A DNA stretch of 64,000 bases from Buxus sempervirens. Taxonomy: Eukaryota; Streptophyta; Magnoliopsida; Buxales; Buxaceae. The notes beneath the pieces were generated by a model. The model worked only from the letters and a program-made list of their open reading frames with translations, had not been told where the DNA came from and made no database searches. Below, piece by piece: positions 7,579 to 63,456 of this stretch. A program made the position numbers and the translations under genes. The stretch covers positions 11,828,048 through 11,892,047 of the forward strand of contig OX387194.1 of the NCBI GenBank assembly GCA_947561395.2, given 5' to 3'. Each line of letters begins with the position of its first letter. The stretch's first letter is position 1.

Positions 7579-7744
7579 TTCCGGAAGGAGAGCGAAGAAT
7601 ATCATCGGAGGCAGAACTTGCCACCGGAAACACGTTGAAGACGGCTAGATTTTGGCTTCTCCGACCTCTTCCACCTCTTCGGCCTCCCTCGTTTTCCGGT
7701 TACTTGCCTCAAACCGATTTCGGATCTCAGAGATTCTTCAATTA

Positions 7745-9055
7745 ATGGCGGAGAAGTGTAAAGATAATTCCAACTCGAACGTGCTCCGCGGCAAGTACGA
7801 TCTCGGTCGGCTTCTCGGCCATGGAACCTTCGCGAAAGTTTACCTTGCCAGGAATTTACAGACCGGAAAAAGCGTGGCAATGAAGGTTGTTGGGAAGGAA
7901 AAGGTGATCAGAGTAGGAATGATGGATCAAGTGAAGCGCGAGATTTCAGTCATGAAGATGGTGAAGCATCCTAACATCGTTGAGCTCCATGAGGTTCTGG
8001 CGAGTAAGTCTAAAATCTACTTCGCCATGGACCTTGTTCGAGGCGGCGAGCTTTTCTCTAAGGTCTCGAAAGGTCGGTTGAGAGAAGACGTCGCTCGTTC
8101 GTACTTTCAACAACTCATGTCCGCGGTTGATTTTTGCCATAGTCGCGGTGTTTATCACCGTGATTTGAAGCCGGAGAATCTCCTCCTCGATGAGGAAGGG
8201 AATCTCAAAGTTACCGATTTCGGATTGAGCACTTTCTCGGAGCATTTGAAACAGGACGGCCTTTTGCATACGACGTGCGGAACTCCGGCCTACGTCGCTC
8301 CGGAGGTGATCGGAAAAAAAGGATATGACGGCGCGAAGGCTGATCTTTGGTCGTGCGGCGTGATTCTCTTTGTTCTTCTTGCAGGATTCTTACCTTTCCA
8401 GGAAGAGAACATCGTTGCCATGTATAAGAAGATCTACAGGGGAGATTTCAAATGTCCGCCGTGGTTCTCGTCCGAATCTCGCCGTCTCATCACGAAGCTC
8501 CTCGATCCGAACCCTAACACAAGAATCACTATGTCGAAGCTCATGGAAACCTCCTGGTTCAAGAAATTGGTGCCAAAGACGGTACGAACGAAGGGAGAAC
8601 TACAAGGAGAAGAAGGACCGGAGGAGGAGAAGGGTGTGAAAGGGAAAGAAACAGAGACACTGAATGCCTTTCACATTATTTCGTTATCGGAGGGGTTCGA
8701 TCTGTCGCCATTGTTCGAGGAGAAGAAGAGAGAGGAAAAGGAAGAAATGAGGTTCGCGACAACGAAGCCGGCAAGCTGCGTAATATCGAGACTGGAGGAG
8801 GTGGCTCAGGCTGTAAAATTTAGCGTCAAGAAGAGCGAATCAACAGTGAGGCTACAGGGACATGAAAGGGGAAGGAAAGGGAAATTGGGGATTGAAGCGG
8901 AGATATTTTCAATGGCACCATCTTTCTTAGTGGTGGAGGTAAAGAAGGACGGAGGAGACACGCTTGAATACAATCAGTTCTGCCGTAAGGAGCTCAGACC
9001 GGCGCTTAAAGACATCTTCTGGACGTCGCCCGCCGAGAGTCCGGCCCCTGCTTGA
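7745..9055 (+). CDS. CIPK6: CBL-interacting protein kinase 6 (SnRK3 family), intronless
   Basis: This 436-aa Ser/Thr kinase is recruited to membranes by calcineurin-B-like calcium sensors and phosphorylates channels and transporters. The kinase domain covers about residues 18-272. It has the glycine loop LGHGTFAKV, catalytic K47, HRDLKPEN with D140, DFG at 158-160 and an activation loop ending TPAYVAPE. The NAF/FISL module starts with NAF at 307-309 ([10 protein letters not shown]), followed by [14 protein letters not shown]-terminal phosphatase-interaction domain ends in RPALKDIFW. The wording of the NAF region and C terminus matches my memory of Arabidopsis CIPK6 closely. The open frame extends upstream without an ATG, so 7745 is the first usable start. 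Like other members of the intronless CIPK clade, it has no introns. A CIPK5/25-type paralogue lies 41 kb away in the same orientation. Confidence 0.93.
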
Positions 9056-41227: not shown

Positions 41228-42944
41228 GGGGACGTTTGGTGGGCATTATAGAATCTGGATTCTAGTAGAATCCGATTCCATAATCCAAAAGGTGTGTTTG
41301 GTTGGGATTTTAAGGCCAGATTCTACTATCTGGTTGTATAATCAAGCCCATAATCAGTATCTCCTTTTTTGGTTATTATAGGGATTATGGACATTGGTGC
41401 TTATATTTCCAAAACCAGTGATTCTAGAGATTATGTATGACATATTATATAAAACATATTATAATAAATAATAACATTATAAGTATTATAATATAATATA
41501 TTCTGTTATATAATATATAATTGATAATACAATATTAAATTATATTACATGTAATATAAATATCATTATTATAATAATATTATAGATTATTAAATTATAT
41601 ATAATAAATTATAAATTTCAATATAATGTACATTATAAATAATAATAATTATTATAATATATTATTTTAATAACAACAAATTATAACATAAATTATATTA
41701 CGTTATAATAATATTATATTATTATTATAATAATATTATATTATTATTATAATAATATTATATTATTATAATAAACATATTATTATATCATAAAATATAA
41801 TAATATTATAATATAATAAATTTATTATGATATTATAAACATAATATCATAATAAATTTAATACATTATAATATATTGTAATAAATTTAATATTATAATA
41901 AATATATTATATTTAATATAATAATATTTTATAAATTATAATATAACTTATATTAGAATTTATTTTATAATAAACATTAATTATACTATAGTATTATAAT
42001 AATATTATTATATATTATAATATTATATTATTATATAATAATCTGAAACATATTAATATATTATATATTTTAAACAAATTGATATATTAATATTAATAAT
42101 ATTATATTGTTACAATAAACATATTATATACATGTATATTTAATATATTCTATTTAATATAATAATATTCAAATTTAATATTATATTAATATTAACATAA
42201 TAATATATATTAATATATTTAACAAATTTAATATTATAATATATTATATTTTATTAAATTTAGTGTTAGAATAAATTTATTATAATATTATATATAATAT
42301 ACATAAAGTTTGAGTAATAATAAACATATATTATATTATTATAAAATTATATATTATAATAAGTTATAATATAAATTATAATATAGTTTATATTATAATA
42401 TACATAATATTATTATAATATTATATTCTAAATTATAATACTATTATAACTATTATATAATATTTATAATATCATATAATATATAATAATAATATATAAT
42501 ATTATAATATAATATATATTATTATAATATAATTAAAATAATATTAGTGTTATTGTAGTACATAATAATATAAATAATATTATTATATATTATTATTATC
42601 ATATTATTATATAATATTATTATATTATTATAATGTTATATTTAAATTTATATATTATATAAAAATATACATGTCACGTAATAATATATATGTAAATACA
42701 ACTTTAATTTTTCTATATATATATATTATTTTTATGTAATTTTTAATAAAAAAAACTCCAAGTTTAATATCAATAATCGGTGGTAACCAAACAAGATTCC
42801 AAATTCTAATTTAAAATCTGAGTTCACAATCCAACTCATCCAAATAGGATTTTGGTTTTCTAAAATCAAGGAAATATAATCTAAGTTATAGAATCTGGGA
42901 TTAGAATTCTAATCCAGATTCTATAATGCCCACCAAACGCCACC
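41228..42944. mobile_element. Harbinger/Tourist-like element with AT-rich core
   Basis: The ends are GGGGACGTTTGGTGGGCATT and the inverse GGTGGCGTTTGGTGGGCATT; the TIRs run about 34 bp (to ATAGAATCTGGATT). TAA flanks both sides (41225-41227 and 42945-42947), matching the 3-bp target site of PIF/Harbinger elements. From about 41440 to 42760 the interior is almost pure A and T, built of shuffled ATTATAATA words. There is no transposase. Confidence 0.75.
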
Positions 42945-42947
42945 TAA

Positions 42948-45127
42948 ATAAATGATTATTTTAAATTATTTAATAATGAGTTATTTAAACAAAATGCTTA
43001 AGTGCTTAATTTTCATTTTTCATTTTTCATTTATTGGGGTCACATATTTTAATTTTTGCTTCTACTTCTATTACACTACTTAGAACTCAAAGTCTACCTA
43101 TTTAATATATCTAACTTTTACTTAATTAATCTTCGCTTTTTGCTTCATTTGGGAGAGACTTGGAGATGGGGTCAGCGGGGTGGTAATGGAGCGGGATTTT
43201 GAAAACCCGAACCTAATCTTATCGGGTTTGTAACAGGGTAAGTCAAGGGTTGACCTGGTGTTATTAAAAAATACAAAAATATATTTTTAAATAGAATATA
43301 TCAATTAATAATATAGAATAAGATAAATACTATATGAAATGGAGGAAACATATCTACATCCATATTGATATATATACAACTACTAAAAGGACAAATAATT
43401 GGTAAAAGTAATAGATCGTAAAAACCATCTCTTATTAAGAGTTTTTTTCGTTTTATTGATTAGCAGATAATATCAAACTATCCTAATTTAATAATCAAAA
43501 TAAAATTGTCTAATAAAATCAAATTAAGATTATCATAATAAAACCAGTATCAAAATAAAATTGTAAGTAGAACAAAAAATAAGTATGAGAAGAATCTAAT
43601 TAATAAGAGTAAATTATGAAATGAAAAGGCCGTTAGATTATTTTTTTAATTAATTCTGTGATTAATTAGCAATAATATTAAAATATCCAAATTTAATAAT
43701 CAAAACAAGATTATATAATAAAATTATAATAATAATATATTATGCATTTACTAATAGCAACACAATAATTTTCTTAGTCTTGAAAAAATATTTTAATTTT
43801 ACAAGTAAATCAATTTGAGTCTCAATTGGAACAAATCTTAGGAAAAATTTTACAAATAATTTCCTTTATCTTAAAGAAAAAGAAGAAACAATAATAATAT
43901 AGTGATCCTACTACAATAATAAATCATGTAGAGAAAAACAAAAAATAAAATGCTTAGAATCCCGAATTCTCAATTTAAGTATAATCAATACTAAATAAAT
44001 ATGAAAACCTACTTTTATTTTTACAAATGATTTTCTTATCCTTAAAAAAGACAACTAATATATAAGTACAGGAAAAAAGAAAAATAATATATATATGCTA
44101 AAAAGTATAAACGACGACGTTGGTGGAAAGAAAAGTTCCAGTGTTTGGATAAGATGAAAAATAGGAATAAAGGATAAATACATTCTTATAAAATGGTGGG
44201 TGGGGGTGTGGCGGTGGTGGTGAGATGGTTGGGGTGGCAGCAACGACAACGACGGTGGGGTGTTAACAACAGCGACGACAATTGGGTAGTGGGGTATGGT
44301 GGGGGTTGTGGAGGGGTGGTGATGATAGTTAGGTTGTAGGGTGTCATATTGGATGGTCACGATGGCCGTGGGGTGGTTGAAGTGGCGATGATGGTAGAGG
44401 GTGGGTGGTAGTGGGAGTAGTAATGGGTGTTCTTAAATAAATTCAATTTTAAAATTTTCTGATGAAATAATTTTTAACGTCATAAAAATCTATCCCCAGT
44501 AACTAAGCATGATAATTATAATATAATAATCTAAATAATAAAGAAAAACCATATATCCAAACAAGATATAAAAGTCCATCTTATTCAATTTTTTTTTTAA
44601 TAATTTTCAACACAAAAAAGTGTTAAAGTTTCAAGAGAGAATATTAAAATTTTTTTCATTTTATATACTATTATAACATAAACCATATTATAAAAATTTT
44701 CTTTCTTATTTATGATCATAAGTTGCTTGGAGATTTGTTAAAAGCATAATATAAAATTATTTAAATAATCTAATTTAAATTTGTATAACATACCAAAAAT
44801 CTTTTACTATTTTAAAGTTGAATCTTAATATATTATATATTTTACATTATTTATTAGTAAAAGCTGTTATACATTAATTATTATAATTAAATATAATTAT
44901 TTAATTATATGTTATTTAAAATAAAAGCACGGATAAAACAACTAGTTAATTAATAGTATATTTATTTATATAATATATGTTTTATAGAAAATATACATGA
45001 AAAGCAATATTTTAACTTGTTCGGGGCGGGTTAGGATCAAGTTGGGTTAAACTGTAACCGAATTCTAATCTTACTTATTCTCTACCAAACTCTAACCATT
45101 GCCCTTAGGTGTTTCCATCCTATGTCT
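42948..45127. other. Intergenic, AT-rich with a GGTGGTGG-rich patch
   Basis: It contains a short CGGGTTT motif cluster (43190-43250) echoed at 45020-45060. These may be the two ends of an old hAT-like repeat about 1.9 kb long. A G/T-rich patch of GGTGGTG-type repeats lies at 44190-44420. The proline- and histidine-rich frame opposite that patch is compositional. No gene is supported. Confidence 0.4.
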
Positions 45128-50118: not shown

Positions 50119-51570
50119 ATGATCAACATGGCCCAACTGCTTCAACTAACTCAACAGAACCACCACCCCCATTTCTCACAGCACAGTAGTTGCAGTAGTA
50201 ACAACGGTAAAGACATGAGAAACGTCTTGTTTGGGAAGTATGAGATAGGGAGGCTATTAGGTCAAGGGACCTTCTCAAAGGTCTACCATGGAAAACAGCT
50301 GAGTTCTGGAGAAAGTGTGGCAATCAAAGTCATCAACAAGGATCAAGTAATAAAAGAATCGCTTACCGATCAAATCAAGCGAGAAATCTCCGTTATGCAT
50401 CGCGTTCGACATCCCCACATCGTCGAACTCAAGGAAGTGATGGCTACCAAAGCAAAGATCTTCTTTATAATGGAATATGTTCGAGGCGGCGAGCTTTTCG
50501 CCAAAGTTGCTAGTGGGAAGATCAGAGAGGATTTGGCAAGAAAGTACTTTCAGCAGTTGATTAGTGCTGTGGATTTTTGTCATAGTAGGGGTGTCTTTCA
50601 TCGAGATCTAAAGCCTGAGAACCTCCTCCTGGATGATAATGAAGATCTGAAGGTGTCTGATTTCGGTTTTTCGGCTCTTCGGGAGCAAATGAGTAAAGAT
50701 GGATTGTTACACACCCAGTGTGGGACTCCAGCTTATGTTGCACCAGAGGTTTTAAGGAAGAAAGGATATGATGGATCAAAAGCTGATATATGGTCTTGTG
50801 GGGTCGTTTTATATGCGTTGCTTGCTGGGTTTCTTCCTTTTCAGCATGATAATGTGTTCAAGATGTATCAGAAGATTTTAAAAGCTGAATTTGAGTTCCC
50901 TCCTTGGTTCTCTAATGAATCCAAGCAGCTTCTTTCTAGAATCTTGGTTGTTGATCCGGAGAAGAGAATTACAATTCAAGAAATAATGGAAGTTCCTTGG
51001 TTTCGGAAAGGATTCAGTAGACCTCTTGCGTTTTCTATTGTGGAGGATCCACCATTACTTGAGAAAGCTGAAGAAGAAGAGATTAAAGAAGCGCCAAGGG
51101 TAGGAAAAGAAAAGAAACCTTCCCCTCCTTTCTTTAATGCATTCGAGTTAATTTCATCCATGTCATGTGGGTTTGATTTGTCGAACCTGTTTGAGAGTAA
51201 GAAGAAGGTGGGATCAACCTTTACATCAAAATGCCCCGCTTCCATGATCATGGAGAAGCTTGAGTTGATAGCAAAGAGGCTGAGCTTTAGAGTTTTGAAG
51301 GCAAAGGAATTCAAGATGAAGATGCAAGCTTCAGTCGATGGGAGAAAAGGGAAATTGTCAGTGGCAGCCGAGGTTTTCGAGGTGGCGCCGGAGGTTTCCA
51401 TAGTTGAACTCTCCAAGACCGCCGGTGACACACTAGAGTATGTTAAATTCTGCGAGGAGGATGTCCGGCCTGCGCTCAAAGACATTATTTGGAGTTGGCA
51501 AGGGGACAGCAATGGTTGTGAAAATTGTGAAAGTAACAGCAACAACAAACACATTAATAGACATAACTGA
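50119..51570 (+). CDS. CIPK5: CBL-interacting protein kinase, CIPK5/CIPK25 type, intronless
   Basis: This 483-aa SnRK3 kinase would be activated through CBL calcium sensors. The N-terminal extension is rich in Gln, His and Ser. The kinase domain is about residues 41-295, with LGQGTFSKV, catalytic K70, HRDLKPEN with D163, DFG at 181-183 and TPAYVAPE. The NAF motif is at 340-342 ([22 protein letters not shown]), and the phosphatase-interaction domain ends [11 protein letters not shown]. The NAF context and WSW(Q/H)GD-like tail match the CIPK5/CIPK25 pair rather than CIPK6; which of the two is not decidable here. Two in-frame ATGs (50119 and 50128) could start the protein. The tail is Asn- and Ser-rich. 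It lies 41 kb from CIPK6 in the same orientation. Confidence 0.9.
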
Positions 51571-52669: not shown

Positions 52670-52970
52670 GGGAAAATTGGTTTTTAGTGATGTTTTTTCA
52701 AAATAATTCAGGTTCAGTTGGCCAATTCTTGATAATTGGTTTTTAGTGATACCTTTTTAACATAACTAAGAATCAGTGTCATTTTATTGTGCATCTAGAG
52801 TTTCCTTCTAAAAATGCCCTCAAAAAGACTTGCAAACTTCACTTGTAACAAAATGAATGAAAAATTTTTCAGTCTTTTGAGAGCATTTTCAAAAGAAACT
52901 CTTGATGGACAATAAAATAACATCTATTTTTAATTATTTTGAAAAAGTATCACTAAAAACCAATTTCTCA
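52670..52970. mobile_element. Small MITE with GGGAAAATT tips, kin of the 58.9-kb foldback
   Basis: The left end GGGAAAATTGGTTTTTAGTG and the right end with AAGTATCACTAAAAACCAAT are inverted copies. A second ATTGGTTTTTAGTGATAC lies inside the left arm. The first 60 bases parallel the tip of the 58943 element (GGGAAAATTAATTTCTAGTG, then TCAG(T)-GGCCAA-TT-TTG). The target duplication is unclear (ttatttca against ttatttta). Confidence 0.6.
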
Positions 52971-57040: not shown

Positions 57041-57044
57041 CATA

Positions 57045-57200
57045 CACCCCTTCAATTGACAAGCTTCCAATTGTATTTTAAATTCCTAAACCAGTCCTAT
57101 AATGACAAAGAATTCCTACTCACACCCCTTCAATTGACAAGCTTCCAATTGTATTTTAAATTCCTAAACCAGTCCTATAATGACAAAGAATTCCTACTCG
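57045..57200. repeat. Exact 78-bp tandem duplication
   Basis: CCCCTTCAATTGACAAGCTT begins at 57047 and again at 57125. The two copies appear identical across the unit through GACAAAGAATTCCTACTC. The lack of differences implies a recent event. Confidence 0.9.
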
Positions 57201-58500: not shown

Positions 58501-58942
58501 GTGTCTCTTCTTATTGTTATTCTTTCAGAGGTTTTCTTCACTTTGCAATGATAAGAAGAAAAAAACAGAGAACAAGAAGAAGAAGAAACACTAGCAGTAA
58601 CACTGAAATAGCAGCTCTACTTCTCTTTCCTCCACCATAGCTAGGCCTCTTTTTTTTCCTTTTTTTTTTTTTCCATTTTTAACTTTTCATAAAAATAAAA
58701 ATAAAGCAATTTATATAGCCAAAGTATCAGTCAGAACAGGCTTGCACTAGATAGTGCAGTGACTTTTTTATTAGTTAATATTTTTTTGGGTATATTAGGT
58801 ATATCTGAATCTTCCTTTTTTATTCAAAAAATATATAACTAGGCACATTAAGAACCAGTCTTGGCCTTTTCCAGCATATAATGACAATCACAAATTGGTA
58901 CCAATATGTGAATAAATTTTGCTTGGTGCATGATTGATTTTC
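58500..58942. other. Intergenic, no gene seen
   Basis: T-rich and A-rich tracts separate the PPR relic from the foldback element. The sequence gattttc at 58936-58942 matches the right flank of the foldback and is its probable target duplication. Confidence 0.45.
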
Positions 58943-59429
58943 GGGAAAATTAATTTCTAGTGATACTTTATGAAAATATTTAAAATTCAGTCAGCCAAGT
59001 TTTGACTTGTGTGTTTCAGCACACCTTTATCAAACTAATTAACATTTAGTGGCATTCCACTATTACAAACCGATTTATTCCAAAAATGCCCTTTACCTCA
59101 TTCGTACGAAAAGTACCAAGGTTTCCAGTAATGTGTTTCAGTACACCTTTATCAAACTAATTAACTTCTAATGACATTTCATTATTACAAGCCTAATACT
59201 TCCAAGAATGCCCTTTTCTCATTTTAAGTAAAATAGAAAATCAAATACATAGATTTCAAAGAATGCCGTTGCTATGTTTGGAGATCGATTTAATTAAATA
59301 AATTTCTAAAAGTACACTTTGCCCCCAACATTCTTCTACGTTTTTTTTTTTTAAAATAAAGAAAGGAGGGAGAGAAAGAGAGCACCTCAATAAAATGACT
59401 TGTAAAATACTTAAGAACATTTTTACCCT

Positions 59430-61095
59430 TTATTAATTAACTTCTACAATAGCATGTATTGACTTATACAGCTATAAGGTGACCTGCACCACTTATTATA
59501 ATGACTTGTACAACTCAATAAAATAACTTGTACATTCTATCAATTGACTTGTATAAAAATATACACTAACTTGTATGCCTATGGAGATTTTATACATCTA
59601 TGAGATGACTTGTACAATGCTATATAGTAACTTATACAGCCATAAGGCAACTTGTACCACTCAACCAAATGACTTGTACCTGTTATCAATTGACTTGTAC
59701 AACAATATACATAAACTTGTATACCTATATAGACTTATATCTCTCTGTCATACGACTTGTGCAATGCTATATACTGATTTGTACATTTATAGGACAACCT
59801 GTACCACTCAATTAAATGACTTGTACTTTATATCAATTGACTTGTACAACAATATATACTGACTTGTATGCCTACAGAGACTTATATATCTCTGTCAGAT
59901 GACTTGTACAATGCTGTGTACTGACTTGAAAATTTATAAGGCGACTTGTACCACTTAACCAAATGACTTGTATCTTCTATCAATTGACTTATACAACAAT
60001 ATACGCTGACTTGTGTGCCTATAGAGATTTATATATCTCTATCAAATGACTTGTACAATGCTGTATACTGACTTGTACATTTATAGGACGACCTGTACCA
60101 CTCAACCAAATGACTTGTATCTTCTATAAACTGACTTGTACAATAATATACACTAATTTGTATGCATATGGAGATTTTATACATCTATGAGATGACTTGT
60201 ACAACGCTATGTACTAACTTATATAGCTATATAATAACTTGTACCACTTAACTAAATTACTTGTACATGTTATCAATTGACTTGTACAACAATATACACT
60301 AACTTGTATACCTATATAGACTTATATCTCTCTGTTAGATGACTTGTACAATGCTATGTACTGACTTGTACATTTATAGGGACAACATGTACCACTCAAC
60401 TAAATGACTTTTACCTTCTATTAATTGACTTGTACAATAATATGCATTAACTTGTATGCCTATAGAGACTTATATCTCTTTATCAAATGACTTGTATAGT
60501 ATTATATACTGACTTGTATATTTATAAGATGACATGTACTACTCAATAAAATGACTTGTACTTTCTATAAATTAACTCGCACAACAATATTCACTAACTT
60601 GTATGCCTATAGAGATTTTATATCTCTCAACCAGGTGACTTGTACTATACTATGTACTGACTTTGCAGCTATAAGGCAACTTGTACCATTCAACCAGATG
60701 ACTTATACTTTCTATCAATTGATTTGTACAATATTATGTACTAACTTATATGACTATAGAGAAACTTATACCTCTCTATAAAATGATTTATACAATATAA
60801 TGTATCAATTTGTACAGGTATAGGGCGATTTGTATCACTTAATCAAATGATTTGTACCTTCTTTCAATTTACTTATACAACACTGTGTACTAACTTGTAT
60901 GCCTATAGAGAAACTTATCCCTCTCTATAAAATGATTTATACAATATAATGTATCAATTTGTGCAAGTATAGGGCGATTTGTATCACTTAATCAAATGCT
61001 TTGTACCTTCTTTCAATTTACTTATACAACACTGTGTACTAACTTATATGCCTATAGAGAGACCTATACCTTATTTTGAATAGTTTGTACCTTTA
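59430..61095 (+). repeat. Left minisatellite arm: 147-bp units of seven 21-bp monomers
   Basis: The landmark AACTTGTATGCCTAT recurs at about 59568, 59713, 59861, 60008, 60155, 60301, 60449, 60596, 60743, 60892 and 61041, a spacing of 145-149 bp. Within a unit GACTTGTA or a close variant recurs about every 19-22 bp, seven times. This is a higher-order repeat. Peptides encoded across it are artefacts. Confidence 0.9.
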
Positions 61096-61134
61096 AAGCA
61101 ATTTTTAACACTTTATCGATCGATATATAGATAG

Positions 61135-61345
61135 TAAGGAATGGGAGGCAGAAAGAGGGGGTAAAGAGAGAGAGAAAGAGAGGGAAGGAGAGGAGGGGAA
61201 GGGGAGGAGAGAAAGTGGGGGAATGGGAGGATGAACGGGGAAGAAAGAAAGAGGGGAGGAAGGGAGTTTGTTAATCAAATAACTTGTAAAATCATTAAGA
61301 GGGAGAAAGAAAGAAAGGGAGAGAGTGGGAGTGCAAGTCATTTTA
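61135..61345. repeat. GA-rich centre of the foldback
   Basis: Purine-rich sequence (GGGAGG, GAGAAAGA and GGGGAAGG words) separates the two arrays. Part of it resembles the AAAGGAGGGAGAGAAAGAGA stretch in the left outer arm at 59360. It may be a remnant of an inner end. Confidence 0.7.
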
Positions 61346-62810
61346 TTGAGTAATACAGATCTTCCTATAAATATACAAGTCAGTACATAACATTGTACAA
61401 GTCATTTGATAGAGAGATATAAACCTCTATAAGCATACAAGTTACTGAATATTGTTGTACGAGTTAATTTATAGAAGGTACAAGTCATTTTATTAAGTAG
61501 TACAGGTCATCCTATAAATATATAAGTCAGTATATAACACTATACAAGTCATTTGATAAAAAGATATAAGCCTCTATAGGCATACAAGTCAATACATATT
61601 ATTGTACAAGTCAATTGATAGAAGGTAAAAGTCATTTAGTTGAGTGGTATAGGTCGTTCCTAAAAATGTACAAGTTAGTACATAACATTGTACAAGTCAT
61701 TTAACAAAGAGATATAAGTCTATACGGATATACAAGTTAGTGTATATTGTTATACAAATCAATTGATGACATGTACAAGTAATTTAGTTGAGTGGTACAA
61801 GTCGCCATATAGCTGTACAAGTTAATACATAACGTTGTATAAGTCATCTCATAGATGTATAAAATCTTCATATGCATACAAGTTAGTGTATATTATTGTA
61901 TGAGTCAATTTATAGAAGGTACACGTCATTTTATTGAATCGTACAAGTCATCCTATAAATATACAAATCAGTATATAGCATTGTACAAGTCATTTGATAG
62001 ATAAATATAAGTCTATATGGGCATACAAGTCAGTATATATTGTTGTACAAGTCGATTGGTAGAAGGTACAAGTCATTTGGTTGGGTGGTACAGGTTGTCT
62101 TATAAATGTACAAGTCAATACACAGCATTGTACAAGTCATCTAACAGCGATATATGCCTCTGTAGGCATACAAGTTAGCGTATATTGTTGTATAAGTCAA
62201 TTGATAAAAGGTACAAGTCATTTGGTTAAGTGGTACAGGTCGCCTTATAAATGTACAAGTCAGTACACAGCATTGTACAAGTCATCTGAAAGAGATATAT
62301 AAGTCTCTATAAGCATACAAGTCAGTATATATTATTGTACAAGTCAATTCATATAAAGTACAAGTCATTTGATTGAGTGGTACAAGTTGTCCTATAAATG
62401 TACAAGTCAGCATATAACATTGTACAAGTCGTTTGACAGAGAGATATAAGTCTATATAGGCATACAAGTTAGTGTATATTGTTGTACAAGTCAATTGATA
62501 ACAGATACAAGTCATTTGGTTGAGTAGTACAAGTTGCCTTATAGCTGTATAAGTTAATATATAGCATTGTACAAGTCATCTCATAGATGTATAAAATCAC
62601 CATAGGCATACAAGTTAGTGTATATTTTTATACAAGTCAATTGATAGAAGGTACAAGTTATTTTATTGAGTCATACAAGTTGTAAATAGTCATACAAGTC
62701 AATACAATATATATATATTGTACAAGTCATTATAATAAGTGGTACAGGTCACCTTATAGCTGTATAAGTCAATACATGCTATTGTAGAAGTTAATTAATA
62801 AAGGGTAAAA
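61345..62810 (-). repeat. Right minisatellite arm, inverted copy of the 147-bp array
   Basis: The inverse landmark GCATACAAGT recurs at about 61430, 61579, 61727, 61874, 62022, 62167, 62313, 62461 and 62608, again 146-149 bp apart. Monomers read TACAAGTC. It has about nine units against eleven on the left, so the arms have changed length independently. Confidence 0.9.
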
Positions 62811-62846
62811 ATGTTCTTAAGTATTTTACAAGTCATTTTATTGAGG

Positions 62847-62849
<3 letters not shown>

Positions 62850-62934
<85 letters not shown>
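62850..62934. repeat. (CT)n microsatellite in the right outer arm
   Basis: A CT tract of about 85 bp lies where the left arm has only a short GAGAGAAAGAGAG. The expansion arose after the arms were formed. Confidence 0.95.
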
Positions 62935-62937
<3 letters not shown>

Positions 62938-63456
62938 CCCCTTTCTTTCTTTATTTTAAAAAAAACGTAGAAAAATGTTGGGGGCAAAGTGTACTTTTAG
63001 AAATTTATTTAATTCAATCAATCTTCAAACATAGCAACGGCATTCTTTGAAATCTATGTATTTGATTTTCTATTTTACTTAAAATGAGAAAAGGGCATTC
63101 TTGGAAGTATTAAGCTTGTAATAATGAAATGTCATTAGAAGTTAATTAGTTTGATTAAGGTGTAAGTTTGATAAAGGTGTACTGAAACACACTACTGCTT
63201 GTAATGATGAAATGTCACTAAAAGTTAATTAGTTTGATAAAGGTGTGCTGAAACACACTACTGGAAACCTTGATACTTTTTGTACGAATAAGGTAAAGGG
63301 TATTCTTGGAATAAATCGGTTTGTAATAATGGAATGCCACTAAATGTTAATTACTTTGATAAAGGTGTGCTGAAACACACGAGGCAAAACTTAGCTGACT
63401 GAATTTTAAATATTTTCATAAAGTATCACTAAAAATTAATTTTCCCCCCGATTTTC

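Follow-up and report, generated by a model that had tools for sequence, protein, structure and literature searches.

What is the structure at positions 58943-63446 of a 64,000-nucleotide stretch of Buxus sempervirens DNA (GenBank assembly GCA_947561395.2, contig OX387194.1, positions 11,828,048 to 11,892,047; the whole stretch is called the window here), in which two arrays of 147-bp units face each other in inverted orientation, and what might its repeats do? The locus is probably a non-autonomous Mutator-type foldback transposon that has spread as such and is one of many copies in the genome. A preliminary description had placed the arrays within a transposon-like frame, and genome copies flanked by 9-bp target duplications bear this out. 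For the 21-bp monomers that build the arrays, we tentatively propose, at somewhat less than an even chance, that they are multiplied protein-binding sites, with a transposase as the first candidate and a host DNA-binding protein as the second; this proposal follows the case of Galileo, where such binding has been tested.

The element, to which no strand is assigned, runs from GGGAAAATTAATTT... to ...AAATTAATTTTCCC and was delimited by its inverted arms, its ends and the family termini seen in other copies; the limits of the preliminary description fit, with GGG at 58943 and CCC at 63446. The outer left terminal inverted repeat (TIR) occupies 58943-59370 on the plus strand and the outer right TIR 62936-63446 on the minus strand. 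An inverted-repeat search aligned 58943-59192 with 63197-63446 and 59142-59370 with 62936-63164, both at 94%, and 59366-59513 with 62718-62865 at 97%. These outer arms had been described as unique; they are inverted as stated, but they are not single-copy inside, since the left arm has two starts of the TIR module, 122 bp from each other, and the right arm has three, at distances of 66 and 122 bp. Inward of the TIRs lie the left array (59397-61060, plus strand, regular part 59504-61060) and the right array (61334-62835, minus strand, regular part 61334-62671), in both of which the monomer GACTTGTA points inward, and the arrays match each other in inverted orientation over 531 nt at 94% and 735 nt at 89%. 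A GA-rich centre without an open frame of 110 amino acids (aa) separates them (61061-61333). On the plus strand, a (CT)42 tract at 62851-62934 marks the boundary between right TIR and right array, and a shorter GA tract sits at the matching place on the left. The element thus has the long inverted arms, internal tandem repeats and small interior by which foldback elements are recognized, and TIRs longer than the 100 bp expected of Mutator-like elements (MULEs).

The two inverted arrays reported earlier were recovered by Tandem Repeats Finder (TRF) with a period of 147 on both sides (59504-61060, 10.6 copies, 81% matches; 61334-62671, 9.1 copies, 79% matches). Allowing at most one mismatch, GACTTGTA was counted 54 times in 59381-61120 and 59 times in 61321-62860, where 200 mononucleotide shuffles each gave means of 0.8 and 0.74 and maxima of 3 and 5; each array has one opposite-strand site. 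Exact occurrences are entirely directional (23 plus and 0 minus in the left array, 0 plus and 27 minus in the right), all pointing inward. Each unit contains seven monomers of 18-22 bp (mean 21.0), whose consensus spacings of 22, 21, 22, 18, 22, 22 and 20 bp recur and total 147, so that the proposed higher-order repeat of 7 x 21 bp is seen directly in the window. Unit lengths agree with the landmark spacing of 145-149 bp noted previously, except for the outermost right unit of 153 bp. Eight pairs of units correspond in order between the arms, with identities of 84-96%; among themselves, left-arm units A1-A10 are 66-91% identical. The right arm has one surplus unit (B6) and the left arm about three (A9-A11). 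A four-unit superperiod (588 bp) appears in the left arm, where the mean identity at lag 4 is.839 and at other lags.763-.815. As a general feature it was rejected, because the right arm favours lag 5 and all copies together hardly differ, with.781 at lag 4 where lags 1-3 and 5 gave.773-.778; it counts as a weak trait.

The ends of the element recur across the genome. A 1-kb query against the organism's own assembly (676.5 Mb) gave 189 matches, with the best 40 of 1221 candidates scored, and 36 loci were cut around the best matches. The family terminus is GGGAAAATTAATTTTTAGTGATAC, with small variations. Among 13 paired-end elements examined, the flanks agree at 9/9 positions in L022, L024 and L025, at 8/8 in L023 and L038, at 8/9 in L030 and L040, and at 9/10 in L048; the comparison tolerated shifts of a few bases and had no null, so that only the full matches carry weight. 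A more distant element found by pattern search, L063 (TIR identity ~80%, unit identity ~75%), has TTGAAGTTT on both sides as read by eye. The shared terminus and the 9-bp target duplications in the relatives together identify a non-autonomous Mutator-type foldback family. The mostly 9-bp duplication typical of MULEs is seen in a number of the relatives, whereas the window copy itself shows 7/9: its imperfect left copy TTGATTTTC (58934-58942, plus strand) pairs with the putative right copy CCGATTTTC (63448-63456, plus strand), GATTTTC being exact. This pairing requires one extra C to be counted as part of the element, and the C-run there may vary in length. A pattern of two successive monomers has 957 and 928 matches in the genome, the control giving 0. 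Of 47 arrays of at least 580 bp, 39 have a period of exactly 147, and all fall within 144-148, although L043 minus and L054 minus overlap a forward array and may be alignment artefacts, and the limits of L022 were set by hand. These 39 include the two arms of L063, for which TRF returned that period unaided.

Short relatives carry a simpler version of the same motif. Ten short loci were cut, and eight resolve as elements of 374-477 bp with family ends, in the manner of miniature inverted-repeat transposable elements (MITEs). Among 12 short elements examined, six have identical 9-bp flanks (L064, L065, L066, L069, L072 and L073), and L070 and L071 (the latter in an A-run) have 9/10, as does L048. 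The centres of the resolved short elements contain 4-7 sites resembling the palindrome TGACTTGTACAAGTCA, exact or with at most five mismatches, mostly 20-22 bp apart (one spacing of 24 and one gap of 42). L064 has seven such sites, two of them exact, at spacings of 22, 21, 21, 20, 21 and 20 bp. The 16-bp palindrome has 789 sites in the genome and its reversed control none. Compared with it, the consensus of the large arrays has kept the left half (0-2 mismatches), whereas the right half has decayed (2-6).

The relationships among units bear on how the arrays came to be where they are. Unit decomposition yielded 398 units, of which 344 were kept and 54 dropped for identity below 66%. The nearest relative lies in another element for 284 units, in the opposite arm for 51 and in the same arm for 9; these counts have no null, and with 35 elements most neighbours are expected elsewhere, so the informative figure is the 9. 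The longest array among the cut loci has 13 units, L022 being set aside because its alignment crossed the centre. No classes emerged when the units were clustered by average linkage. Ward's method, run on informative columns and applied to 330 of the 344 units after dropping those below 74% identity to the consensus, revealed an ordered series of unit types common to both arms and to many copies. From outside to inside, the order bcfeacdhg occurs in L021R, L022R and L024R and, in closely similar form, in L022L, L030L, L038L and the two window arms; one subfamily has repeated 'fe' pairs ('fefe'), and L042-L046 and L049 form a more uniform lineage. In 13 of 14 two-arm elements, the best match of a left-arm unit is on average more similar when taken from another element than when taken from the opposite arm, which indicates that the palindromic arms are generally older than the insertion. 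The exception is L022 (.959 to the opposite arm,.909 to another element), whose two TIRs are 98.6% alike and at most 91.6% similar to any other end; to judge from these sequences, arm-to-arm homogenisation seems to have taken place in at least one lineage. In the window copy, the TIR pair is barely nearest (.946 versus.943). The array looks like inherited cargo of transposition rather than a locally growing satellite, a reading based on these sequence comparisons.

If the monomers do have a function, their sequence may carry signs of it. Among 275 nearest pairs of at least 85% identity, differences affect 6.1% of sites in the core ACTTGTA and 8.6% in the spacer; stratified by base, this contrast has P =.038, and the true register comes first among 147. 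Constraint on the core is weakly suggested. Scanning periods of 5-30 bp, a power peak of AA/TT/TA near 10.5 bp was found in both arms, with P of.04 and.05 against a spacer-permuted null, so that helical phasing of sites, or curvature, is possible. The motif TGAC[CT], which we take to be the core recognized by WRKY proteins and which is part of the monomer, occurs at 16.4 per kb here and 3.0 per kb in the rest of the window; its high density follows from its place in the monomer and by itself proves nothing. Under the foldback reading, a MULE transposase would have moved the element in trans. The seven-monomer unit could have arisen from a short ancestor in which a palindromic core motif recurred every ~21 bp; slippage or unequal exchange would then have multiplied the unit, leaving it in both arms, and in at least one lineage the arms may later have been re-equalised by conversion. 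The monomer, half of TGACTTGTACAAGTCA, would be a putative binding site multiplied by the array in helical register, the weakest step of the scheme, and the multiplied sites would raise recognition of the long ends. A stronger version, which we consider unlikely, makes the 16-bp palindrome every two helix turns a shared organ of the whole MULE family in this genome: its density of seven per 147 bp would have been maintained in diverged subfamilies because a dimeric protein, either the transposase or a recruited host factor such as a WRKY protein, assembles on it in a filament-like manner. The scale would extend from 4-7 palindromes in the MITEs to around a hundred half-sites in the foldback.

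Several observations weigh against the foldback reading or against the role that we propose for its monomers. The 7/9 flank matches of the window copy and L031 are no evidence on their own, and flanks agree at only 6 of 8 or 9 positions in L035 (two elements) and L043; the short loci L067 and L068 were not resolved. Since the arrays were located via a 147-bp consensus and the loci picked for likeness to the window, the period survey favours 147. TIRs of the same element are nearest neighbours in only 3 of the 11 elements with both ends in the tree. L048 is free of arrays and also has matching flanks, which means that the arrays may be dispensable, unless L048 lost its array later. In the core comparison, G is more often changed within the core than within the spacer, and the 275 pairs lack independence. 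When the comparison is limited to the window arms, Fisher P values for three core widths are.053,.155 and.013, the P stratified by base is.069, and the true register has rank 7 among 147. Derivation of the 147-bp unit from the MITE core of L064, as judged by monomer order, could not be shown (order-permuted P.12-.72 in eight tests); compared with spacer-shuffled units, the MITE core gave P values of.017-.63 in eight tests, two of them at or under.05. No element combining these ends with its own transposase gene was found among the frames judged by eye, and a MURA-like gene with a SWIM zinc finger in L058 was set aside as a partner, as it seems to be part of a different, nested MULE.

This partner search covered frames of at least 110 aa in the 36 own-genome loci and the window copy, and of at least 130 aa in six TIR-led loci. 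In L058, the foldback arm is interrupted at about 861 and resumes at 8836, and the intervening stretch has other inverted ends (956-1147/8636-8843); the apparent nested MULE shows no clear target duplication, the best match being 7/8. A hAT-like piece in L046 (4991-5476) was rejected because it lies outside the end of that element (4861). MULE transposase domains are frequent in the genome (150 scored of 1051 candidates, all above the cut-off, many in long open frames), which makes a source in trans plausible. In the region of L058 and L051 (C12:22549000-22561000), a different-looking MULE with a MURA-like gene was observed within the left arm of a foldback copy. The L058 gene has twelve more full-length matches in the genome at 88-91% protein identity, some with stops. 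The L063 foldback, which represents a second subfamily, itself sits within another inverted repeat that is MULE-like by eye.

The same arrays could also be explained without any binding function. The monomers may be a passive by-product, a functionless minisatellite born in a MULE and grown by slippage or unequal exchange, which hitch-hikes in an element of the same identity as proposed above; its conserved core would then reflect shared ancestry and lower mutability. We regard this as a substantial possibility that falls short of probable. The difference between core and spacer is small and partly explained by base make-up, unit pairs were duplicated as 'fefe' in one subfamily, and L048 does without arrays, all of which speak for a by-product; it fits less well with the recurrence of one motif at similar spacing in the MITEs, the main subfamily and the subfamily of ~80% TIR identity, or with the first rank of the monomer register among 147. 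A different role would lie in RNA: if the inverted arrays were transcribed, a stem of ~2 kb could yield small RNAs, which would either silence the family or have targets elsewhere. The long hairpin suggested by the preliminary description could be formed by the sequence, the whole element being predicted to fold into a single long stem with 1714 left-right pairs and a minimum free energy of -2687.7 versus -916.8 for one mononucleotide shuffle. Transitions make up 87 of the 108 differences between the arms in the eight unit pairs, as methylated DNA would give. Such folding is common to any long inverted repeat, however, and the G-U bias expected on one strand is not clear (34 vs 53, P =.053), so that we rate this model as rather unlikely.

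The agreement of the unit with the DNA of a nucleosome core invites the idea of an array that phases chromatin, with one core particle per unit. The exact 147 of most arrays and the 10.5-bp peak in both arms are what such an array would show, but a pitch of 147 bp leaves no room for linker DNA. Moreover, seven ~21-bp monomers are enough to give this figure, the number of sites in the MITE relatives varies from 4 to 7 without a fixed total, and the helical periodicity is weak. The match to nucleosome length is therefore probably a coincidence, and nucleosome phasing, put forward earlier as a possible role of the array, appears from the sequence to be a most improbable cause of the period. The earlier suggestion of a satellite nursery, in which arrays escape the element and expand as satellite DNA, fared little better. 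Arrays and dispersed copies are both present, and there is a precedent in Tetris (PMC4079207, as far as the available part of that paper goes). Against it stand the length of the arrays, which reach at most 13 units in the cut loci with L022 set aside and the best 40 of 1221 candidates scored, and the rarity of units whose closest relative is in the same arm (9 of 344); we consider this very unlikely.

Compared with described elements, the family is closest to Tm1, Tetris, Galileo and MuTAnT/FARE, judged from the available portions of the papers cited here. Tm1, of the Mutator/Foldback family in root-knot nematodes, has mostly 9-bp target duplications, composite TIRs that are largely short tandem repeats, and both MITE-like and transposase-bearing groups (PMC3169594). 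It resembles the present family in its duplications and TIRs and differs in that its repeat is 13-15 bp, a second 147-bp level is not mentioned in the portion available, and its transposase has been identified (PMC3169594). Tetris of Drosophila virilis is likewise a non-autonomous foldback with tandem repeats within its TIRs, the ends of which are those of the MITE DAIBAM; its repeats of ~220 bp seeded satellite arrays, whereas no free satellite was seen here in the cut loci (PMC4079207). Galileo, a foldback-like element of the P superfamily, shares long, internally repetitive TIRs but has a P-type transposase, whose DNA-binding domain binds sites in the TIR repeats in vitro, one at the end and two further ones; the same paper notes that the Foldback and Phantom repeats had yet to be tested for such binding (PMC3688188). 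MuTAnT of Medicago is, like FARE1 of Arabidopsis cited in the same paper, a plant MULE-type foldback, and it has 9-bp duplications (PMC4486113). Its GGGG/CCCC end run varies in length, which may account for the extra C's at 63447-63449 in the window copy. MuTAnT differs in its TA-microsatellite targets and 144-bp TIRs, and long tandem arrays are not mentioned in the part available (PMC4486113). MULEs with tandem TIRs resemble the outer arms in that TIR sequence is duplicated in tandem, but they have two or three TIRs and not about a hundred 21-bp monomers (PMC3310237). SIRC elements of Arabidopsis, which their authors trace to MITE cores, share short direct repeats with diverse spacers; they have 2-8 repeats, and the available text does not mention foldback arrays (PMC10342631). 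A plant foldback with the 21/147-bp hierarchy was not found in our literature search, a statement that holds for that search and its partly available sources alone, and a text search for TGACTTGTAC gave no such element by title among the matches listed.

In other sequence collections, the pattern TGACTTGTAC-N9-13-TGACTTGTAC was found in one viral and 11 prokaryote stretches. A 21-bp tandem repeat with GTACAAGTC in a Bacteroidetes metagenome-assembled genome (L005:2116-2385) was rejected as a relative, as it agrees only in the 9-bp core selected by the pattern; by its sequence it is probably unrelated, through chance or coding. Within the window, a separate MITE of ~300 bp with related ends and a tandemly duplicated left terminus lies at 52670-52970 (no strand assigned), with a target-site match of 7/8 (TTATTTCA/TTATTTTA). 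A perfect 78-bp tandem duplication occupies 57044-57199, and ~1.2 kb of degenerate AT-rich tandem repeats occupy 41484-42661 (GC content of 42001-44000, 17%). Kinase, long interspersed nuclear element and hAT-like frames were named by eye, including two CIPK-like kinase frames about 41 kb apart (7649-9055 and 50119-51570); in our view this gene content is that of a plant.

The element is a well-preserved member of the MULE/foldback group that is unusual for its two-level arrays, its closely kept 147-bp period and its MITE relatives with helically spaced palindromes. It cautions that a repeat length of 147 bp need not stem from nucleosomes. The function of internal repeats in foldbacks has been tested in few cases, and this family offers a natural series within one genome, from MITEs with few palindromic sites to foldbacks with two-level arrays, in which ends and target duplications are held in common. 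Such a series permits copy number, mobility and arm conversion to be compared against array size.

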